Source of the DNA: Kutzneria viridogrisea
Lineage (GTDB): Bacteria > Actinomycetota > Actinomycetes > Mycobacteriales > Pseudonocardiaceae
Direction of reading: 5' to 3'
Assembly (NCBI GenBank): GCA_014138725.1
Contig: JACJID010000002.1
Location: forward strand, 386,001-450,000
DNA length: 64,000 bases
How positions within the stretch are numbered: the stretch's first letter is position 1; every line of letters starts with the position of its first letter. The notes under the pieces are model-generated. The model was not told where the DNA came from. It saw only the letters and a list, made by a program, of their open reading frames with translations, and made no database searches. A program made the translations under genes and the position numbers. This document shows positions 36,201-63,197 of this stretch, piece by piece.

Positions 36201-37779
36201 CGGCGCGGTGGTCCAGTGCGGCACGGGTGGTGGCCAACGAGTGGCCGATGTCCTCGGGACGTCCGTCCAGAGTGGACAGCAGGCGTTCGGCCTGGACACG
36301 CAGCGCGTCCTCGGTGTGCGCCGAGAGCACCCAGGTCACGGCGACCGCGTCGCGCACCGGCTCCGGCTCGGGCGCGTCCTCCGGCTCCTCGGGGACCGGG
36401 GCCTGCTCGATGATCAGGTGGCTGTTGGTGCCGCTGGCTCCGAACGCGGAGATCGCCGCGCGGCGCGGGCCCTCCTTCTCGGGCCAGTCGACGCGCTCGG
36501 TGAGCAGCCGCACGGTGCCGGAGGACCAGTCCACGTGCGGGGTCGGCTCGTCCACGTGCAGGGTCTTGGGCAGCACCCCGTGCCGCATGGCCAGGACCAT
36601 CTTGATGACCCCGACGACACCGGCCGCGGCCTGGGTGTGGCCGACGTTGGACTTGAGCGTGCCCAGCCAGAGCGGGTTGTCCTTGTCGCGGGCGCGGCCG
36701 TAGGTGGCCAGCAAGGCCTGCGCCTCGATCGGGTCGCCCAGCGTGGTGCCGGTGCCGTGCGCCTCCACGACGTCCACATCGGACGGTTCCAGGCCCGCGC
36801 TGCTCAGCGCCTGGCGGATCACCCGCTGCTGGGAGGGGCCGTTCGGAGCGGTCAGGCCGTTGGAGGCGCCGTCGGAGTTGACCGCGCTGCCCCTGATGAC
36901 CGCCAGCACCGGGTGGCCGTTGGCCTGCGCGTCGGACAGGCGCTCCAGCACCAGCACGCCGATGCCCTCGCTCCAGCCGGTGCCGTCGGCGCCCGCGGCG
37001 AACGCGCGGCAGCGGCCGTCGACCGACAGCCCGCGCTGGCGGCTGAACTCCACGAAGGAGCGCGGCGTGGCCATGACGGTCGTGCCCGCGGCCAGCGCCA
37101 GCGAGCACTCGTCGCGGCGCAGCGCCTGCACGGCCAGGTGCATGGCCACCAGTGAGGAGGAGCACATCGTGTCGACCGTGACGGCCGGGCCCTCCAGGCC
37201 GAAGTTGTAGGCGAGCCGACCGGACAGCACCGCCGTGCAGCTGCCGGTGAGCACGTGGCCCTCGATGCCCTCCGGGGCGGCGAGCGGACCGGTGCCGTAG
37301 CCCTGGTTGCTGGCGCCGACGAACACGCCGCTGCGGCTGCCGTGCAGGGAGGTCGGGTCGATGCCCGCGCGCTCCAGCGCCTCCCACGCGCCCTGCAACA
37401 GCAGGCGCTGCTGCGGGTCCATCGCGGTGGCCTCGCGCGGCGAGATGCCGAAGAAGGAGGCGTCGAACCGGCTGGCGTCCGCCAGGAAGCCGCCGGCCTT
37501 GGTGTAGCTCTTGCCGTGCTGCTCGGGGTCCGGGTCGAACAGCTCGTCCAGGTCCCAGCCGCGATCGTCGGGGAAGCCCCCGATCACGTCGCGCTCGTCC
37601 AGCAGCAGCCGCCAGACCTCCTCCGGGGTGCTGACCCCACCCGGCAGCAGGCAGCTCATGGACACGATGGCGATGGGCTCGTTGTGCCGCGACTGCACCT
37701 CGCGCAGTTGCCGACGAGCCTGGCGCAGATCCGCCGTGACCCTCTTCAGGTAGTCACGAAGCTTCTGCTCGTTCTCCAT
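21214..37779 (-). CDS. Type I modular polyketide synthase, three modules, first PKS gene of this operon
   Basis: A 5521-residue PKS. It has an N-terminal docking helix ([18 protein letters not shown]), three extension modules starting near residues 33, 2053 and 3494, and a C-terminal docking region ending [11 protein letters not shown]. Domain sets are KS-AT-DH-ER-KR-ACP, KS-AT-KR-ACP and KS-AT-DH-ER-KR-ACP. The ATG at 37779 has AGGAG 8 nt upstream. Because it starts with a docking helix and a normal KS, it is not the loading protein; it must receive a chain from a PKS encoded elsewhere. It follows the P450 gene on the same strand after a 191-bp gap. That gap holds four 9-mer repeat copies and no convincing promoter. 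Confidence 0.98.
21460..27300 (-). other. PKS module 3: KS, AT (malonyl), DH, ER, KR (B-type), ACP; fully reducing
   Basis: KS begins at [16 protein letters not shown] with [12 protein letters not shown]. The AT (from about residue 3988) has GHSIGE and [12 protein letters not shown] (malonyl). The DH (from about 4330) has [10 protein letters not shown]. The ER (from about 4785) has [15 protein letters not shown] and [11 protein letters not shown]. The KR (from about 5096) has [14 protein letters not shown] (B-type) and [11 protein letters not shown]. The ACP is [11 protein letters not shown]. Predicted unit: methylene. It is the near-duplicate of module 5. Confidence 0.9.
27300..31623 (-). 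other. PKS module 2: KS, AT (methylmalonyl), KR (A-type), ACP
   Basis: KS begins at [16 protein letters not shown] with [12 protein letters not shown]. The AT (from about residue 2558) has GHSQGE and [10 protein letters not shown] (methylmalonyl). The KR (from about 3125) lacks the LDD motif (GVVHVTQI in its place) and carries the A-type tryptophan in [13 protein letters not shown], with Q rather than H before the catalytic Tyr, which suggests A1. It is the only A-type KR in the seven modules. The ACP is [11 protein letters not shown]. Predicted unit: alpha-methyl, beta-hydroxyl of opposite carbinol configuration to the other alcohols. Confidence 0.88.
31640..37683 (-). other. PKS module 1: KS, AT (methylmalonyl), DH, ER, KR (B-type), ACP; fully reducing
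   Basis: KS residues 33-460; the nucleophile motif reads [14 protein letters not shown], with Met where Ala is usual. The AT (from about 563) has GHSQGE and [10 protein letters not shown] (methylmalonyl). The DH (from about 925) has [10 protein letters not shown]. The ER (about 1360-1660) has [15 protein letters not shown] and [11 protein letters not shown]. The KR (from about 1681) has [14 protein letters not shown] (B-type) and [11 protein letters not shown]. The ACP serine (LGFDSL) is near 1993. Predicted unit: alpha-methyl with a fully reduced beta-carbon. Confidence 0.9.
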
Positions 37780-37880: not shown

Positions 37881-37960
37881 CGAGTCCCGCTCCGCGGGCA
37901 ACCCGGGAGCGGGACTGGGCTGCGGCAGAGCGGGACTCGGCGTCGGGAGAGCGGGACTCG
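37881..37960. repeat. Four-copy CGGGACTCG-type repeat array behind the P450 stop codon
   Basis: One inverted copy (CGAGTCCCG at 37881) and three direct copies starting at 37910, 37931 and 37952, exactly 21 bp apart; the first of the three is the variant CGGGACTGG. The array ends 11 bp from the P450 stop codon and fills much of the gap before the PKS operon. It belongs to the same family as the arrays at 45125, 45298, 46730, 56045 and 56366. Confidence 0.85.
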
Positions 37961-37970
37961 CGGGGTGGGG

Positions 37971-39182
37971 TCAGTCCCAGGTGACGGGCAGCTGGTGCAC
38001 GCCGTAGTGCAGCATGTCCTCGCGGGTGGGGATCTCCTCGGCGGGCACGGCCAGCCGTAGCGTGGGGAAGCGGTCGAACAGGGCGCGGTAGCCCACGCGC
38101 AGGGTGAGCCGGGCCAGGTGCTGGCCCAGGCACTGGTGCACGCCGTGCCCGAAGGCCACGTGGCCCTGGGTGGAACGGCCCAGGTCGAGGCTGTCCGGCT
38201 CGGGGAACTTCTCCGGGTCGCGGTTGGCCGAGGGCAGGGACACCACGATGGTCTGCCCGGCCTCGATCAGCTTGCCGCCCAGCTCCACGTCCTCCAGCGC
38301 GGCGCGGCTGGCGCCCAGGTGGGAGACGGTCAGGTAGCGCAGCAGCTCCTCGATGGCGTTGTCGGTCAGCTCCGGCTCGGCGCGCAGGCGGGCCAGCTGC
38401 TCCGGGTGCTCCAGCAACGCCCAGGTGCCCAGCGCGAGCATGTTTCCGCTGGTGTCGAAGCCGCCGCCGAGCAGCGCCCAGGTAATGTTGATCAGTTCCT
38501 TCTCGTCCAGCTCGCCCGTGCGGGCCAGCGAACCGAGCATGTCGTCACCGGGGTTGGCGACCGCCTCTGAGACGACCGTCTGAAGCACCGAGCTGAGCGT
38601 GATGACAGCCTCGGTGATCTCCTCCACGGTGTAGCTCATCTTGGACACCACGGCCAGGTGCTTGGCCAGCGGCTCGCGGTGTTCGGGCTTGATGCCGACC
38701 AGCTCGCACATCAGCTCCACCGGCAGCGGCTCGGCGTAGGCGGTGACCAGGTCGGCCACCGGCCCCGCGGCGGCCATCTCGTCCAGCAGGCGCGCGGCGA
38801 TGCGCTCCACGACCGGCTCCAGCTCGCGGATCCTGCGCACGGTGAAGTGGCCCGCGAGCATCCTGCGGTACCGGCTGTGGTCGGGCGGGTCCATGGTGAT
38901 GAACGCGCCGGGTTCGGCCGCACCGGGCTTGTACTCGCCCTCACCCATGGGCAGCGGCGGCGGGATGGGCAGCGAGATCAGCTCCTTGCGGTGGCTGAAC
39001 CGCTGGTCCACCAGCACGGTCTTGGCGTCCTCCAGCCGGGTCACCAGCCAGCCGTCGCGGCCGTCCAGGCTCACCGGCATGGCCAGCGGGCTGACCGGGC
39101 ACTCCTGCCGCAACTGCTTGTACTGCTCGGGAGGGTCGAACGGGCAGCCGCGCTTGATCGGCAGCTGCACGGGCTCAGACAT
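37971..39182 (-). CDS. Cytochrome P450 monooxygenase
   Basis: A soluble bacterial P450 of 403 residues, normal for the CYP107/CYP105-like families of macrolide clusters. The heme loop FGHGVHQCLGQ has the ligand cysteine near residue 350. The ExxR motif (EELLR) is near 277. The I-helix reads LLGGGFDTSGN near 237, keeping the acid and threonine used in oxygen activation although the usual Ala of AGxxT is Gly. It probably hydroxylates or epoxidises the macrolide; the substrate cannot be told from sequence. The intact Cys means it is a working oxygenase and not a DesVIII/EryCII-type glycosyltransferase activator. Its ATG overlaps the stop of the upstream glycosyltransferase by 8 nt, so the genes are translationally coupled. 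Confidence 0.95.
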   Translation of the reverse strand: MSEPVQLPIKRGCPFDPPEQYKQLRQECPVSPLAMPVSLDGRDGWLVTRLEDAKTVLVDQRFSHRKELISLPIPPPLPMGEGEYKPGAAEPGAFITMDPPDHSRYRRMLAGHFTVRRIRELEPVVERIAARLLDEMAAAGPVADLVTAYAEPLPVELMCELVGIKPEHREPLAKHLAVVSKMSYTVEEITEAVITLSSVLQTVVSEAVANPGDDMLGSLARTGELDEKELINITWALLGGGFDTSGNMLALGTWALLEHPEQLARLRAEPELTDNAIEELLRYLTVSHLGASRAALEDVELGGKLIEAGQTIVVSLPSANRDPEKFPEPDSLDLGRSTQGHVAFGHGVHQCLGQHLARLTLRVGYRALFDRFPTLRLAVPAEEIPTREDMLHYGVHQLPVTWD

Positions 39183-44550: not shown

Positions 44551-45123
44551 ATGCCGAGCAAGACGGAGCCGGAGTCGAGCACCCGCAGCCGCACCCGCCG
44601 CGCGATCCTGGACGCCGCGCTGGAGCTGCTCAGCCAGCGCCCCGGCACCTCGCTGGGCGAGATCGCCGAGGCCGCGGGCGTGGGCCGCAGCACCCTGCAC
44701 CGGTACTTCTCGGAACGGTCCGAGCTGATCGCCGCCATCGCGGGCGATGCCGTGGACAAGCTCACCAGCGGGGTGGCCGAGGCCGCGCTGAACCAGGGCA
44801 CGCCGGTGGAGGCACTGCGCCGCGTGGTGCACGTCTACTTCGAGTTCGGCCCCGTGCTGCTGTTCCTGGTCAGCGAACCCCAGGTCAGCACCGAGATCGT
44901 CACCGGCATCGAGACCGCCGACGTGCCCGTGCTGGAGCTGATCCAGCGCGGTCAGCGCGAAGGGTACTTCGACAGCTCGGTGAGCGCCCAGTGGATCAGC
45001 CGGGTGCTGGGCTGGATGGTGCACGCGGGCAGCGAGTCGGTGCGCGAAGGTGAGCTGACCCGCTTCGAGGCCGTGGAAACCGTGATCCGCACCCTGGAGC
45101 GCGGGGTCGTGTCCGCGGGCTGA
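44551..45123 (+). CDS. TetR-family transcriptional regulator
   Basis: A 190-residue regulator with an N-terminal helix-turn-helix (RRAILDAALELL, then SLGEIAEAAGVGRSTLHRYF) and a ligand-binding C-terminal part with no recognised subfamily. It is divergent from the ABC exporter and probably represses both genes until the product or an intermediate binds. The ATG at 44551 is preferred over the ATG at 44533. The best -10-like hexamer (TACTGT, 44539-44544) lies between the two, which would place the transcript start at or next to the 44551 ATG, so the mRNA may be leaderless. Immediately behind the stop codon a periodic repeat array begins. Confidence 0.9.
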   Translation: MPSKTEPESSTRSRTRRAILDAALELLSQRPGTSLGEIAEAAGVGRSTLHRYFSERSELIAAIAGDAVDKLTSGVAEAALNQGTPVEALRRVVHVYFEFGPVLLFLVSEPQVSTEIVTGIETADVPVLELIQRGQREGYFDSSVSAQWISRVLGWMVHAGSESVREGELTRFEAVETVIRTLERGVVSAG

Positions 45124-45124
45124 C

Positions 45125-45261
45125 CGGGACTCGCGCACGGCTGAGCGGGACTCGCCGTCGGCTGACCGGGACTCGCGCGTGGCTGGGGGCGGGACTCGCC
45201 GTCGGCTGACCGGGACTCGCGCATGGCTGGGCGGGACTCACGCGCCTGTGGACGGGACTCG
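45125..45261 (+). repeat. Seven-copy CGGGACTCG array, 21-bp period
   Basis: Copies start at 45125, 45146, 45167, 45190, 45211, 45232 and 45253, so the steps are 21, 21, 23, 21, 21, 21. The sixth copy ends in A. The 11-12 bp between copies also share wording (variants of CCGTCGGCTGA). The array begins 2 bp after the TetR stop codon. With the facing array at 45298 it fills the 378-bp gap before the next gene. No gene, tRNA or clear promoter is visible in that gap. Confidence 0.9.
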
Positions 45262-45297
45262 CCGGGTGGGGGCGCGCGACGTGCCCACCACCACCGG

Positions 45298-45432
45298 CGT
45301 GTCCCGCTCTGGGTAGCGCGAGTCCCGCCGTGGGTAGCGCGAGTCCCGGCCTGGGGTACGCGAGTCCCGGCCTCCAGCACGCGAGTCCCGCTCTGGAACC
45401 CGCGAATCCCGCTCCCCCGATCCCGAGTCCCG
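45298..45432 (-). repeat. Seven-copy inverted CGAGTCCCG array, exact 21-bp period
   Basis: Copies start at 45298, 45319, 45340, 45361, 45382, 45403 and 45424, exactly 21 bp apart each time. The first (CGTGTCCCG) and sixth (CGAATCCCG) are one-base variants. The 9-mer is the reverse complement of the one in the array at 45125-45261, so two seven-copy arrays face each other across about 36 bp. Confidence 0.9.
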
Positions 45433-45501
45433 TCCTGGGGAAATCCCCACTCCTGAGCTGGTTCGCTTCGCCCGCGCGGCCCGTGCCGCCAAGCTGCTGG
45501 G

Positions 45502-46722
45502 GTGCGGCACATCGCGTACTTCAGCTTCGCCGGGTACGGCCACATCGCGCCCTCGCTGCCGGTGGTCACCGAACTGATCCGTCGCGGGCACCGGGTCACC
45601 TACAGCGTGGCCGAGCGCTACGCCGACCTGGTCGCGGCCACGGGCGCGCGGGTGCTGACCTACCCCTCCACGTTCCCGGAGCGGATCGGCCACATCGAGA
45701 CGGCCGACGACGGGGCCCGGTTCATCGCCCAACTGCTGGCCGAGGACTTCACCCCGCTGCGCAAGGCGATCACCGAACTGGCCGCCGACCCGCCGGACGT
45801 GGTCGTGCACGACACGATCGTGCCGCTGGCCGCCCGCGTGGTCGCCAAGCACTTCGACCGGCCGGTCATCCGCGCGTACCCGGTCTTCGCCGAGATCGAC
45901 GGGGAGCTGCCCGGTGGGCCGAAGACCGACCCGCAGCACCCGGCGGCCACCACCCCGTCCGAGCAGGAACCGCCGGAGGTCGTGGCGTTCCGGCAGTGGA
46001 TGGACGCCGAGATCGACGTGCTCGTGGAGCAGCACGGGGTGGCGCCCGAGGCGTTCGAGCACGCCTTCGTCGACGGCCTGGAAGACCTGAACCTGCTCTA
46101 CATGCCGCGCTCGTTCCAGTACGGCGGCGAGCTGTTCGACGACAGCCACGTCTTCGTCGGCCCACCGATTCCCGAGCCGGTGCCCGCGAAGGTGTGGCGG
46201 CGCCCCGACGACGGCCTGCCCGTCGCGGTGATCACCGCCAGCACCTCGACCGAGTACCCGCTGGAGTTCTTCCGCGCCGCCGCCGAGGCGTTCGCGGAGC
46301 TGCCGTACCACGCGGTGCTGACCCTGGGGCGCGGCATCGACCCAGCCGAACTGGGCCCGCTCGCGCCCAACGTCGAGGCGTTCCAGTGGCTGCCGCACGC
46401 CGAGGTGCTGCCCGACACCGAGCTGTACGTGTGCCAGGCGGGCATCACGGGCATCATGGCGGCGCTCAGCCACGGCGCGGCGGTCATCTCGGTGCCCTCG
46501 GTGACCGACGAGCAGATCGCCGAGTCGGTGCGGGTCGAGCAGCTGGGGCTGGGACGGATGATCCGCCCTGAGGAGCTGACCGCGCAGTCGCTGCGGTCCA
46601 CCGTGCTGGAGATCGCGCGGGACAACGGGGTGCGGTCCGCCGTGCAGGACATGCAGCGGCAGATCAAGGAGGCCGGTGGCGCGATCGCCGCCGCCGACCA
46701 GATCCTGTCGAAAGTCCGGTGA
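45502..46722 (+). CDS. MGT-family glycosyltransferase with a divergent donor loop
   Basis: A 406-residue GT-B protein starting MRHIAYFSFAGYGHIAPSLP; the catalytic-base His (YGH) is kept. The donor loop that in relatives reads HxGMGSxxE is VCQAGITGIMAALSHGAA here. The His is Gln, the GMGS glycine/serine pattern is broken and the Glu is Ala; the later D-E-Q (PSVTDEQ) remains. It may use another donor or be impaired. The start is the GTG at 45502, the only suitable in-frame start, and has no good Shine-Dalgarno sequence. It stands alone between two periodic repeat arrays and converges with the glycosyltransferase at 47009. Overall fold and family are certain; activity is not. Confidence 0.88.
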   Translation: MRHIAYFSFAGYGHIAPSLPVVTELIRRGHRVTYSVAERYADLVAATGARVLTYPSTFPERIGHIETADDGARFIAQLLAEDFTPLRKAITELAADPPDVVVHDTIVPLAARVVAKHFDRPVIRAYPVFAEIDGELPGGPKTDPQHPAATTPSEQEPPEVVAFRQWMDAEIDVLVEQHGVAPEAFEHAFVDGLEDLNLLYMPRSFQYGGELFDDSHVFVGPPIPEPVPAKVWRRPDDGLPVAVITASTSTEYPLEFFRAAAEAFAELPYHAVLTLGRGIDPAELGPLAPNVEAFQWLPHAEVLPDTELYVCQAGITGIMAALSHGAAVISVPSVTDEQIAESVRVEQLGLGRMIRPEELTAQSLRSTVLEIARDNGVRSAVQDMQRQIKEAGGAIAAADQILSKVR

Positions 46723-46729
46723 CGCACGG

Positions 46730-46903
46730 CGAGTCCCGCCCACACGCAGCTGAGTCCCGCTCTGCCAATGGCCAAGGCCGACGGCAGCGCGGGATTCGCT
46801 TGCCCCAAACCGGGACTCATGCTCCCCTGGGCGGGACTCGCGTACCCCAGACCGGGACTCGCACGCCCCAGACCGGGACTCGCGTCCCCCAGAGCGGGAC
46901 TCG
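46730..46903. repeat. Eight-copy CGGGACTCG-family array, 21-bp period, with one orientation switch
   Basis: Two copies in CGAGTCCCG orientation start at 46730 and 46751 (the second is TGAGTCCCG). Six in CGGGACTCG orientation start at 46790, 46811, 46832, 46853, 46874 and 46895, exactly 21 bp apart. The array starts 8 bp after the stop codon of the preceding glycosyltransferase. Confidence 0.9.
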
Positions 46904-46921
46904 CACACGGCTCCGGAACGT

Positions 46922-47004
46922 CCGACACGCCGTACACGAAGCGCCGACACGCGGGGGTCAGGACCTCAACCCCGCGTGTCGGCGCTTGCGGTACGGCGTG
47001 TCGG
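46922..47004. terminator. Long hairpin built from the 22-bp-period CCGACACGC repeat, likely bidirectional terminator
   Basis: CCGACACGC copies at 46922 and 46944 (22 bp apart) face GCGTGTCGG copies at 46974 and 46996 (22 bp apart). The inner arms 46939-46956 and 46970-46987 pair perfectly over 18 bp around a short loop. The outer 14-base arms (46922-46935 with 46991-47004) also pair. It lies between two convergent glycosyltransferase genes and ends 4 bp from the stop of the second. Confidence 0.8.
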
Positions 47005-53606: not shown

Positions 53607-54716
53607 ATGACGACCCTGGTGTGGGACTACAAGCAGGAATACGAGAACGAGCGGGACGACATCCTCGACGCGGTGGACACCGTCTTCCGCTCCGGCCAGC
53701 TCGTGATGGGCAAGAGCGTGGCCGGGTTCGAGCAGGAGTACGCCGCCTACCACGGGATGAAGCACTGCGTCAGCTGTGACAACGGCACGAACGCCATCGT
53801 GCTGGGCCTGCGCGCCGTCGGCGTGAAGCCCGGCGACGAGGTGATCACCGTGTCCAACACGGCGGCGCCCACGGTCATCGCGATCGACCAGATCGGCGCC
53901 ACGCCGGTCTTCGTCGACATCAACGAGTCCGACTACCTGATGAACGTGGATCAGGTGGAGGCGGCCATCACGCCGAAGACCAAGTGCCTGCTGCCGGTGC
54001 ACCTGTACGGGCAGTGCGTGGACCTGGCCCCGCTCAAGGCGCTGGCGGAGAAGTACAACCTGGAGCTGTTCGAGGACTGCGCGCAGTCCCACGGCGCCAG
54101 GCAGAACGGCGTGCTCGCGGGCACCACCGGCAAGGCGGCGGCGTTCTCGTTCTACCCCACGAAGGTGCTCGGCGCCTACGGTGACGGTGGCGCGATGGTC
54201 ACCAACGACGACGAGGTCGCCGACAACATGCGCAAGCTGCGCTACTACGGCATGGCCAAGCAGTACTACGTCGTGCAGACCCCGGGCCACAACAGCCGTC
54301 TGGACGAGGTGCACGCGGAGATCCTGCGCCGCAAGCTGACCCGCTTCGACGGCTACCTGGCCGCCCGTCGCAAGGTCGCTCAGCGCTACCAGGAGGGCCT
54401 GGGCGACACCGAACTGGGCCTGCCCGCGATCACCGAGGGCAACGACCACGTGTACTACCTCTACGTGGCCCGCCACCCCAAGCGCGACGAGATCATCGAG
54501 CGCCTGAAGAGCTACGACATCCTGCTCAACGTCAGCTACAAGTGGCCGGTGCACACCATGACCGGCTTCGAGCACCTGGGCTACAAGACCGGTGCCCTGC
54601 CGGTCACCGAGAAGCTGGCCGACCAGATCTTCTCGCTGCCCATGTACGCCTCGCTGACCGAGGACACTCAGGACAAGGTGATCAACGCGCTGCGCGAGGT
54701 GCTGCGCACGCTGTAA
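53607..54716 (+). CDS. evaB: PLP-dependent NDP-hexose 3-aminotransferase (EvaB/TylB/EryCI type)
   Basis: Aminates C3 of a dTDP-3-keto-6-deoxyhexose; in the vancosamine route this follows the 2,3-dehydratase. It has 369 residues. The N-terminus [20 protein letters not shown], the pattern [30 protein letters not shown] and the lysine in [15 protein letters not shown] are characteristic of the EvaB/TylB/EryCI group. GGAGG lies 12 nt before the ATG. It is on the same strand as the preceding aminotransferase-GT pair and is followed by a strong hairpin (54729-54768) before the EryCIII-type glycosyltransferase. The gene name is by family resemblance; the substrate depends on the actual sugar. Confidence 0.9.
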
Positions 54717-54728
54717 CAGCTCCAGCTC

Positions 54729-54768
54729 GCGGCCGGGACTCGGCGGGTGGTCGCCCGGTCCCGGCCGC
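54729..54768 (+). terminator. Stable stem-loop between the 3-aminotransferase and the EryCIII-type glycosyltransferase
   Basis: Arms GCGGCCGGGAC (54729-54739) and GTCCCGGCCGC (54758-54768) pair perfectly over 11 bp, with a further GGCG/CGCC pairing inside. The left arm contains one CGGGACTCG-type repeat copy (54734). It has no T run; it may terminate or reduce transcription into the next gene, which starts only 26 nt later. Confidence 0.55.
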
Positions 54769-54793: not shown

Positions 54794-56041
54794 GTGCGTG
54801 TCCTGTTCGCGACCCTGTCGGAGAAGTCGCACGTGTACGCGCTGACGCCGCTGGCCTGGGCGTTCACCACCGCGGGGCACGAGGTCCGCGTGGCGAGCAC
54901 CCCGGACATGGCACCGGTCATCGCGGGCACCGGTCTGAGCGCCGTGGCCGTGGGCGAGAACCACAACATGCACGAGATCCTGTTGGAGTTGCAGGGAGCC
55001 GGGCTGCTGGAGAGCGAGGAGGCCGACTGGTCGCGCCCCTTCGCCCAGGACCTCACCTGGGAGCAGGTGCACGCCAAGGTGGAGCGCAGCATCCTGGCCC
55101 TGGGCAACTACAACGACCCGATGGTCGACGACCTGGTCCGCTTCGCGCGGGCCTGGAAGCCCGACCTGGTGGTGTGGGACGTGCTGACCTACTCCGGCGG
55201 CATCGCCGCGCAGGCCTGCGGCGCGGCCAACGCGCGGTTCACCTGGTCGCTGGACCTGTACAGCCCGATGCGCAAGGCCTTCCTGGAACTGCGTGGCGCG
55301 CGCGAGGTCGACCCGATGGCCGACTGGTTCGGCGGCCACCTGGAGCGGTTCGACTGCGAGTACGACGAGGACCTGTTGCACGGCAGGTGGACCGTGGACA
55401 TGGTGCCCTCCAGCTTGCAACTGCCGGTCACCGGTCAGCGGGTCCCGGTGCGCTACACCCCGTACAACGGTCCGTCCGTGGTGCCGGATTGGGTTCTCGA
55501 AGCTCCGGAGCGCCCGCGGGTCTGCCTCACCCCCGGCGTGTCCTTCACCGGGGACGGCTCGTACCTGCCGATCCGCACCGTCATGGAGTCCTTGGCGGAC
55601 CTGGACATCGAGGTCGTCGCCACGATGAGCCCCGAGGACATGGACCCGGCAACCGTGCCCGCCAACACCCGGCTCACCGGCTTCGTGCCGCTGCACGCGT
55701 TGCTGCCCACCTGCTCCGCGGTGATCAACCACGGCGGGTTCGGCACCCGGTCCACCGCCATGTACTACGGCGTGCCCCAGTACCTGCTGCCGATCCGGCA
55801 CGGTGACGTGCTCGTCTACTCCGAGGCACTGGACCGGGTCGGCGCCGGACTGTACAGCCACGCCTCGGAGGTCACCGCCGAGAAGATCCGTGACGGCGTG
55901 GTGCGCCTGCTCGGCGAACCTGGCTTCGCACAGAGCGCGAACAGGCTGCGGCAGGAGATCCTCACCACGCCCAGCCCCAACGAGGTCGTGCCGCTGCTGG
56001 AACGGCTCACCATCCAGCACCGCACCTCCGTCCCCGTCTAA
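54794..56041 (+). CDS. EryCIII/DesVII-type macrolide aminosugar glycosyltransferase
   Basis: A 415-residue GT-B enzyme of a different group from the other six. It starts VRVLFATLSEKSHVYALTPLAWAF, has the His in KSHVY, and carries the donor region INHGGFGTRSTAMYYGVPQYLLP with a downstream Asp. This pattern is that of the macrolide and aminosugar transferases EryCIII, DesVII and TylM2, many of which need a P450-like activator (EryCII/DesVIII). No such activator gene is seen in the window. The GTG start at 54794 has AAGGGA 7 nt upstream. It follows the 3-aminotransferase and is the best candidate for attaching the 3-amino sugar. Directly behind its stop a five-copy 21-bp repeat array begins. Confidence 0.92.
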   Translation: MRVLFATLSEKSHVYALTPLAWAFTTAGHEVRVASTPDMAPVIAGTGLSAVAVGENHNMHEILLELQGAGLLESEEADWSRPFAQDLTWEQVHAKVERSILALGNYNDPMVDDLVRFARAWKPDLVVWDVLTYSGGIAAQACGAANARFTWSLDLYSPMRKAFLELRGAREVDPMADWFGGHLERFDCEYDEDLLHGRWTVDMVPSSLQLPVTGQRVPVRYTPYNGPSVVPDWVLEAPERPRVCLTPGVSFTGDGSYLPIRTVMESLADLDIEVVATMSPEDMDPATVPANTRLTGFVPLHALLPTCSAVINHGGFGTRSTAMYYGVPQYLLPIRHGDVLVYSEALDRVGAGLYSHASEVTAEKIRDGVVRLLGEPGFAQSANRLRQEILTTPSPNEVVPLLERLTIQHRTSVPV

Positions 56042-56044
56042 CCG

Positions 56045-56137
56045 CGAGTCCCGCCCAGAGGCGCGCGAGTCCCGCCCAGCCGCACGCGAGTCCCGCTCTG
56101 GGAGGCGCGAGTCCCGCCCACAGGTCGACGAGTCCCG
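56045..56137 (-). repeat. Five-copy CGAGTCCCG array, exact 21-bp period
   Basis: Copies start at 56045, 56066, 56087, 56108 and 56129. The array begins 3 bp after the stop codon of the EryCIII-type glycosyltransferase. It is the first part of a 351-bp gene-free gap that is filled by this array, the 22-bp-period array, a stem-loop and two further 9-mer copies. Confidence 0.9.
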
Positions 56138-56144
56138 CCCTGCG

Positions 56145-56282
56145 CCGACACGCCCAACTCCCCGCGTGTCGGCGCTTCGCGTACGGTGTGTCGGCGCCTC
56201 CCGCACCGCGTGTTCGCGCCTCCCGCACCGCGTGTCGGCGCTTCGCGTACCGTGTGTTGGCACTTCCCGCACCGCGTGTTCG
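56145..56282. repeat. 22-bp-period GCGTGTCGG array in a convergent gene junction
   Basis: One CCGACACGC copy at 56145 faces six GCGTGTCGG-type copies starting at 56164, 56186, 56208, 56230, 56252 and 56274, exactly 22 bp apart. Variants are GTGTGTCGG, GCGTGTTCG and GTGTGTTGG. The bases between copies alternate between two wordings (near CGCTTCGCGTAC and CGCCTCCCGCAC). The first pair (56145 with 56164) can form a hairpin. Confidence 0.85.
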
Positions 56283-56310
56283 CACCTGATACCGGTGACC
56301 CGAACACGAC

Positions 56311-63079: not shown

Positions 63080-63107
63080 AAGCTACTCACACGGCAAACC
63101 GGAAGCG

Positions 63108-63181
63108 CCGACACACCGTACCGGAACGTCCGACACGCGCTGTCAACCCCGCGTGTCGGACGTTCGCGTACGGTGTGTCGG
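63108..63181. repeat. 22-bp-period CCGACACGC / GCGTGTCGG repeat, hairpin-forming
   Basis: CCGACACAC at 63108 and CCGACACGC at 63130 (22 bp apart) face GCGTGTCGG at 63151 and GTGTGTCGG at 63173 (22 bp apart). Flanking bases also pair, so a long stem can form. It is the third convergent junction carrying this family (oxidoreductase against C-methyltransferase). Confidence 0.85.
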
Positions 63182-63197
63182 ACGTTCCGGTACGCAC

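Follow-up and report, generated by a model that had tools for sequence, protein, structure and literature searches.

Between the gene for a TetR-family regulator and that for an EryCIII-like glycosyltransferase, the genome of Kutzneria viridogrisea carries two facing arrays of a 9-mer repeated at a 21-bp period, and the question is what such arrays are and how they came to lie there. The window analysed here is a stretch of 64,000 nucleotides of this 10.25-Mb genome (G000, C2:386001-450000), and positions without a contig name refer to it. Array 1 (45125..45261, plus strand) adjoins the TetR gene (44551..45123, plus strand), beginning 1 bp past its stop codon, and consists of seven copies of CGGGACTCG starting at 45125, 45146, 45167, 45190, 45211, 45232 and 45253 (steps of 21, 21, 23, 21, 21 and 21 bp), of which the copy at 45232 has a single mismatch and the other six are exact. 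Array 2 (45298..45432, minus strand) holds seven copies in the opposite orientation, starting at 45298, 45319, 45340, 45361, 45382, 45403 and 45424 at steps of exactly 21 bp throughout; five are exact, and the copies at 45298 and 45403 each carry a single mismatch. The last copy of array 2 lies 69 bp ahead of the called start of the glycosyltransferase gene (45502..46722, plus strand), which is situated 3' of both arrays. A sequence-only reading of this DNA had reported seven plus seven facing copies with these steps, and all of them are indeed present within one mismatch, 11 of the 14 being exact. In addition, the arrays give rise to long open frames that are spurious and encode a seven-residue repeat of the RESR type (e.g. 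45238-46950, minus strand), which automatic annotation may call proteins.

The repeat unit in the window and across the genome

Exact copies of the 9-mer, hereafter the core, occur 25 times in the window, against 2.24 expected from shuffles (maximum of 100 shuffles: 6), and are spread over five intergenic regions. A sister locus at 37881..37960 has a reverse core at 37881 and forward cores at 37931 and 37952, and is found 10 bp from the stop of a minus-strand gene (37971-39182). Seven bp past the glycosyltransferase stop codon there is a reverse core (46730..46738, minus strand), and the same convergent intergenic region contains a sister array of four exact cores at 21-bp steps (46832..46903, plus strand). 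Further on, a single core (54734..54742, plus strand) lies 17 bp past the stop codon at 54716, and a sister array of five exact cores at 21-bp steps (56045..56137, minus strand) starts 3 bp past the stop codon at 56041. A second repeat family, of the GTGTCGG type and with a 22-bp period, shares the intergenic region of this last array (56162..56287); repeats of this type are also present at 63089-63194 and occupy the same kinds of place as the 21-bp arrays. An Rfam search of positions 36000-58000 returned one match at gathering score and none over the arrays; the lone match, to ASpks (36652-36726, 59.2 bits with a cut-off of 52), possibly reflects conserved coding sequence of a polyketide synthase region.

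A count of the 9-mer and its spacings over the complete genome, proposed in the sequence-only reading as a check, reveals that neither density nor spacing is random. The genome has 1570 exact cores versus 157 for the reversed 9-mer used as control, and 679 same-strand pairs exactly 21 bp apart versus none for the reversed pattern; these 679 make up nearly all of the 700 same-strand pairs spaced 10-39 bp. Within an 840-kb sample the spacings peak at 21, 42, 63 and 84 bp (81, 61, 32 and 24 pairs, respectively), and 196 of 209 array steps measure 21 bp, the others being 20 (6), 22 (4) or 23 bp (3). The array had no match in a PLSDB plasmid search. Among the literature matches listed, no title was relevant to CGGGACTCG or CGAGTCCCG, or to intergenic repeats of Pseudonocardiaceae and other actinobacteria.

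Over 264 units, one base accounts for 94-99% at each of positions 1-8, with G (0.78) or A (0.22) at position 9 and C (0.84) at position 10, but this set was gathered by likeness to the core, which inflates the apparent core conservation. Conservation was therefore remeasured on 61 unselected middle units, i.e. those between two exact cores 42 bp apart, which were not chosen for a core of their own. The core is exact in 45 of them, has one mismatch in 13 and more in 3, corresponding to a mean identity of 96.5% to CGGGACTCG. Outside the core, positions 10 and 14 are C (0.93 each) and position 19 is G (0.87) in these units, while the rest range from 0.33 to 0.75; spacer identity amounts to 0.55 within arrays and 0.49 between arrays, with 0.32 expected from base composition. 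Given a core identity of 0.965 in unselected units and these spacer values, the core and the 21-bp phase are far better kept than the spacer, which retains a partial consensus. The earlier suggestion that the spacing is preserved better than the sequence in between thus stands for core and phase, although the spacers are not free.

Gene ends, related genomes and rival readings

Gene calling relied on a home-made hexamer method, which missed several of the DUF222-HNH genes described further below. With 6 further cores at segment edges dropped, 163 cores of the sample could be placed, 78 between convergent, 75 between co-directional and 4 between divergent genes, and 6 inside called genes. Counting intergenic regions of 40-1500 bp in the 840-kb sample, with those over 1500 bp left out, an array is present in 9 of the 44 convergent regions (enriched, p 0.0002), in 9 of the 188 between co-directional genes and in 1 of the 91 divergent ones (depleted, p 0.019). 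In 17 of 18 cases no more than 20 bp separate the array from a stop codon (median 10 bp), compared with a mean of 8.7 and a maximum of 14 cases in 400 runs of random placement in the same regions; the sole divergent array region lacks a flanking stop codon and is therefore not counted among the 18. All nine co-directional arrays are on the side of the upstream stop, eight of them at 1-18 bp from it and one at 104 bp, with the next called start 56-463 bp away, and some arrays fill the full span from stop codon to stop codon. Relative to the gene whose 3' end they adjoin, 89 cores show CGAGTCCCG in the sense direction and 41 are oriented the other way, array 1 of the window belonging to the rarer class. 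This anchoring to stop codons bears on how transcription ends between convergent genes in high-GC actinobacteria. Like the genome-wide amplification, the hairpin form in relatives and the DUF222-HNH link, it goes beyond what the sequence-only reading had noticed.

Six other genomes of the genus contain between 0 and 7 of the 21-bp pairs each, versus 679 in G000, yet in all seven genomes the cores outnumber the reversed control, in the relatives from 83 versus 70 up to 466 versus 164. A lack of arrays in other strains, combined with no other sign of function, had been named as what would speak against a functional array; the pairs are indeed nearly lacking in these same-genus genomes, but the core exceeds its control, and in G005 and G001 it is part of hairpins in comparable positions. 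There, long hairpins have a single core at their outer end (e.g. TGA-CCCC-GCGAGTCCCGC ... GCGGGACTCGCGGGG). In the 11 inverted-pair loci of these two genomes, picked among the matches listed mostly for two nearby opposite cores (L289, overlapping L290, was omitted), the cores are 64 bp apart in 5 and 56 to 180 bp apart in the others, 9 of the 11 are no more than 10 bp away from a called stop codon, and folding energies range from -45 to -128 kcal/mol; eight other picked loci (L296, L300-L306) are not hairpin pairs. Versions with two cores in mirrored arms exist as well (G006, G003, G005). Beyond the genus, the GGGACTCGC pair was found in 18 of 200 Pseudonocardiaceae genomes, and loci of Amycolatopsis and Pseudonocardia show the same array type as in K. 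viridogrisea. In other genera, by a crude ORF filter, 11 of 20 loci have a called stop codon no more than 40 bp from the array, and 11 of 12 such gene ends show CGAGTCCCG in the mRNA sense.

Because the core is found at hairpin ends by stop codons in G005 and G001 and is in excess throughout the genus, we read the array as the amplified end of a palindrome. The 9-mer would then be the outer end unit of a palindromic REP/BIME-like 3'-end repeat of Pseudonocardiaceae that is of mobile type and recognised as DNA, a reading to which we assign a probability of roughly 0.55. The hairpin would represent the older form and the 21-bp array its amplified end, propagated as a mobile element or by recombination. 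Core and phase might persist while spacers drift because a protein recognises the core along one face of the double helix, and the element could spread or be copied by nicking and repair, with copies surviving beside stop codons since they would do least harm there. Where two orientations meet, the transcript might in addition form a terminator-like hairpin. The DNA-binding array proposed earlier is compatible with these observations. Counting against the mobile reading are the mixed orientation towards the gene (89 versus 41 cores) and an array gap at C1:700-900 kb despite ample intergenic space, and no empty-site pair that would show an insertion event came to light.

The same phase of two helical turns and the same conserved core would also be expected if an abundant host protein bound on one face of the DNA and turned the array into a roadblock terminator, an insulator or a topology site at gene 3' ends, and the enrichment between convergent genes and at stop codons fits such a role. 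So does the conserved DUF349 locus, where a strong intergenic hairpin is visible by eye in five same-genus species (G001, G002, G003, G005 and G006; none in G004) and cores are present in K. viridogrisea, although, as read from the sequence, those cores can themselves make a hairpin. A role run by the host sits poorly with an amplification in one species among seven, and 200-kb samples of G005 and G006, taken around known core or DUF222 places, did not yield another periodic repeat that would fill it. As no candidate protein emerged either, we consider this explanation unlikely.

Folded as RNA, the two arrays of the window pair as one long hairpin (45124..45440, plus strand; -226.3 kcal/mol, z -10.3), whereas array 1 alone reaches a z of only -0.43. 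Facing arrays could thus act at the RNA level, as a bidirectional terminator or as a stabiliser of mRNA 3' ends, and the hairpin form in relatives would suit this. Among 19 array regions, folded over stretches limited to 350 bases, 8 contain at least two cores per orientation, and 6 of these reach a z of -5.2 or lower. The array units run in blocks of one orientation, and the other 11 regions have essentially one orientation only, with z from +1.3 to -4.3 and a single value below -2.2, i.e. mostly no better than shuffles. Array-bearing 3' ends even fold worse than others (mean z -1.19, n=21, versus -2.22 for 90 sampled from 188), the best hairpin energy of convergent regions does not differ with and without arrays (p 0.14), and hairpins that beat shuffles, as expected of intrinsic terminators, were not found at most loci. 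Hairpin RNA therefore arises mainly where both orientations meet, as at the window locus, and is not a general principle; the structured RNA suggested by the sequence-only reading holds for this locus and fails for most of the arrays with one orientation. Since an RNA role does not call for a 21-bp phase either, we regard it as quite improbable.

Ordinary tandem duplication by slippage or unequal crossing-over, without any recognition of the unit, has some observations in its favour: identical multi-unit blocks follow each other at 84-bp steps at C1:400797-401162, and spacers of different arrays resemble each other more than base composition predicts. From these blocks and the partial spacer consensus it follows that part of the array may be ordinary duplication. 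As an account of the whole it appears very unlikely, since spacer identity within arrays is barely above that between arrays while unselected cores keep 96.5% identity. The earlier preference for other readings over a simple tandem duplication is thus borne out by the contrast of core and spacer and by the regular steps, with the qualification that plain tandem growth also occurs.

That the array is a form of the 7-bp tandem repeat (CGGGACT)n, which contains the same 9-mer and also yields it at 21-bp steps (21 = 3 x 7), and which accounts wholly or mostly for 76 of the 80 examined loci of a contig scan, is ruled out for K. viridogrisea by its spacers, which lack a 7-bp repeat and vary around a conserved core, and loci of the K. 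viridogrisea type in Amycolatopsis and Pseudonocardia leave this reading hardly any probability. The scan found at least 85 loci with 9-mer arrays, of which the 80 and L115 were classed and L111-L114 left out; CGGGACT repeats of 7 bp are present in many contigs of Lysobacterales, Xanthomonas, Microbulbifer and Craterilacuibacter (L031-L110).

The linked DUF222-HNH genes

Five unusually long array regions hold near-identical genes that the gene finder had missed. The one copy scanned matches Pfam DUF222 with 110.2 bits (cut-off 24.4), followed by HNH with 20.1 bits, just under the cut-off of 21.4, and on this copy we count the family as DUF222-HNH (13E12); its residues 296-354 bear a weak resemblance to the HNH part of IscB. 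The genome has 33 DUF222 matches, of which 26 were examined, 14 belonging to the array-linked family (74-92% identical to the query copy) and 12 not, while two more are further parts of examined genes. A fifteenth family copy at C1:399578 has same-orientation array pairs upstream (C1:400797-401162). Upstream of all 14 fetched copies there are 3-25 cores in one orientation, and none occur within 1500 bp downstream. Three or more same-orientation cores precede 9 of 608 other genes, the family being scored within 1500 bp of the match and the background genes within 1200 bp. Repeats of the 22-bp GTGTCGG type, too, precede all 14 examined copies.

In the 13 copies with a start found, 104-260 bp separate the last exact core from the ATG, and in 12 of them this distance is a multiple of 21 within 2 bp, an offset that was noticed first and tested afterwards. 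The single orientation and the mostly fixed register to the ATG indicate that the array is built into the DUF222-HNH unit. Furthermore, alignment of the 14 copies reveals the same 3' end in 12, at about CTCAGnCGnAG, beyond which the flanks differ and supply the stop codon (in the other two the aligned window did not reach this end), so that gene and array together have the look of a mobile unit, as far as sequence comparison can tell. The unit ends without a stop codon of its own, e.g. at L142:3005-4114 (minus strand), where the flanking DNA provides it; at C1:342893 the unit end appears to supply the TGA of a convergent gene.

Homologues of the protein in other genomes are at most 54% identical among the matches listed, and five of the six same-genus genomes have 17-58 DUF222 matches. 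A search for any core within 2600 bp upstream came up empty for 11 of the 12 other examined DUF222 copies of K. viridogrisea, and one of the core-less copies is 52% identical to the family over 181 residues. G006 has 58 DUF222 matches yet only 7 pairs. No upstream 21-bp periodicity of the family kind was found in 8 DUF222 loci of G006 or in 12 of G105, G002, G005 and G003 (one locus of the 20 fetched was partly unreadable). Conversely, the draft genomes G074 (90 contigs, 17 array pairs) and G147 (220 contigs, 7 array pairs) have no DUF222 match, and the DUF222 protein is therefore not generally needed. As a candidate for a dispersed array equivalent in G006 and G002 we considered GTGTCCGCACCGCG, which occurs 12 times in each, but 20 of these 24 copies precede a listed DUF222 match by no more than 1 kb, so that it is a gene-bound motif rather than a dispersed array. 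Among the DUF222 papers listed, no title concerns an array.

Going by linkage alone, the DUF222-HNH protein would be the most likely reader and spreader of the repeat in K. viridogrisea. It is tempting to extend this to a RAYT-independent REP/BIME-like system, in which a DUF222-HNH nuclease with its own 21-bp array might spread arrays behind stop codons, replacing hairpin terminators; judged from sequence patterns, we regard this extension as speculative and rather doubtful. DUF222-HNH genes are multi-copy in many actinobacteria, and the phase-locked array before one family offers a concrete handle on them.

Relation to REP elements and spread along the chromosome

RAYT transposases are thought to read and spread REPs, and the link between array and gene family bears on how REP-like repeats arise outside RAYT systems. 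As far as passages of two papers describe them, REP/BIME systems with a RAYT have cognate repeats beside the gene, species-specific copy numbers, 3'-end placement and tandem clusters (PMC2817692, PMC3733652), and a passage of a third puts REPs within 15 nt of stop codons (PMC12306157). The K. viridogrisea arrays resemble the systems of these passages in being high-copy extragenic repeats (more than 100 copies; here 1570 cores, with 157 of 163 placed sample cores intergenic), in amplification specific to a species and in the use of both orientations (PMC2817692, PMC3733652). They also share the position at 3' ends in convergent and co-directional regions, close to or providing stop codons, and the cognate copies beside an enzyme gene (PMC2817692, PMC3733652, in the same passages); downstream placement applies to 17 of 18 arrays, and 1 of 91 divergent regions has one. 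The DUF222-HNH gene holds a place analogous to that of the RAYT (Y1 transposase) gene.

There are differences as well. REPs are imperfect palindromes of 20-40 bp, with a GTAG/CGTC tag in large families, whereas the unit here is a non-palindromic, tagless core of 9-10 bp (CGGGACTCG), phased at 21 bp and separated by poorly conserved spacers; the linked gene encodes a DUF222-HNH protein and not a tyrosine transposase, and arrays are found only upstream of it. The palindrome is partly echoed in G005 and G001, where a longer palindrome has the core at its ends. Lacking the palindrome that defines a REP, the repeat is not filed as a REP here but likened to one. The REP13E12/DUF222-HNH repeats of Mycobacterium, named in a passage of PMC10589994, have in common with the K. 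viridogrisea family a multi-copy DUF222 gene with an HNH end; the phased array as an upstream module sets the latter apart from REP13E12 as that passage describes it (PMC10589994).

Regular spacing of this kind is familiar from other systems. Iterons and transposon ends present several protein sites spaced 21-22 bp, about two helical turns, and thus resemble the arrays in their period; they sit at replication origins or element ends, however, whereas the arrays lie behind many unrelated genes.

The arrays are unevenly spread along the chromosome. The gap at C1:700-900 kb comprises 29 convergent regions of at least 40 bp, yet only three single cores and no 21-bp pair, and the paired forms of all three repeat families are absent from it; across C1 462-1300 kb (about 840 kb) no 21-bp pair was among the matches listed. 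Simple random spread does not explain this gap. Accumulation of the arrays in dispensable DNA is unsupported, as the stretch without a pair at C1:700-900 kb has a coding cover of 78% by the home-made gene finder. The third of the repeat families is a hairpin of the form CATGAAAGTGCC...GGCACTTTCATG whose half sites are separated by 37 bp; it is located mostly in convergent or co-directional regions (C1:8465-8532, 125489-125565, 1318640-1318706, plus 15 further intergenic regions in the sample); the 18 regions listed for it and the 28 listed for the 21-bp core are entirely separate sets.
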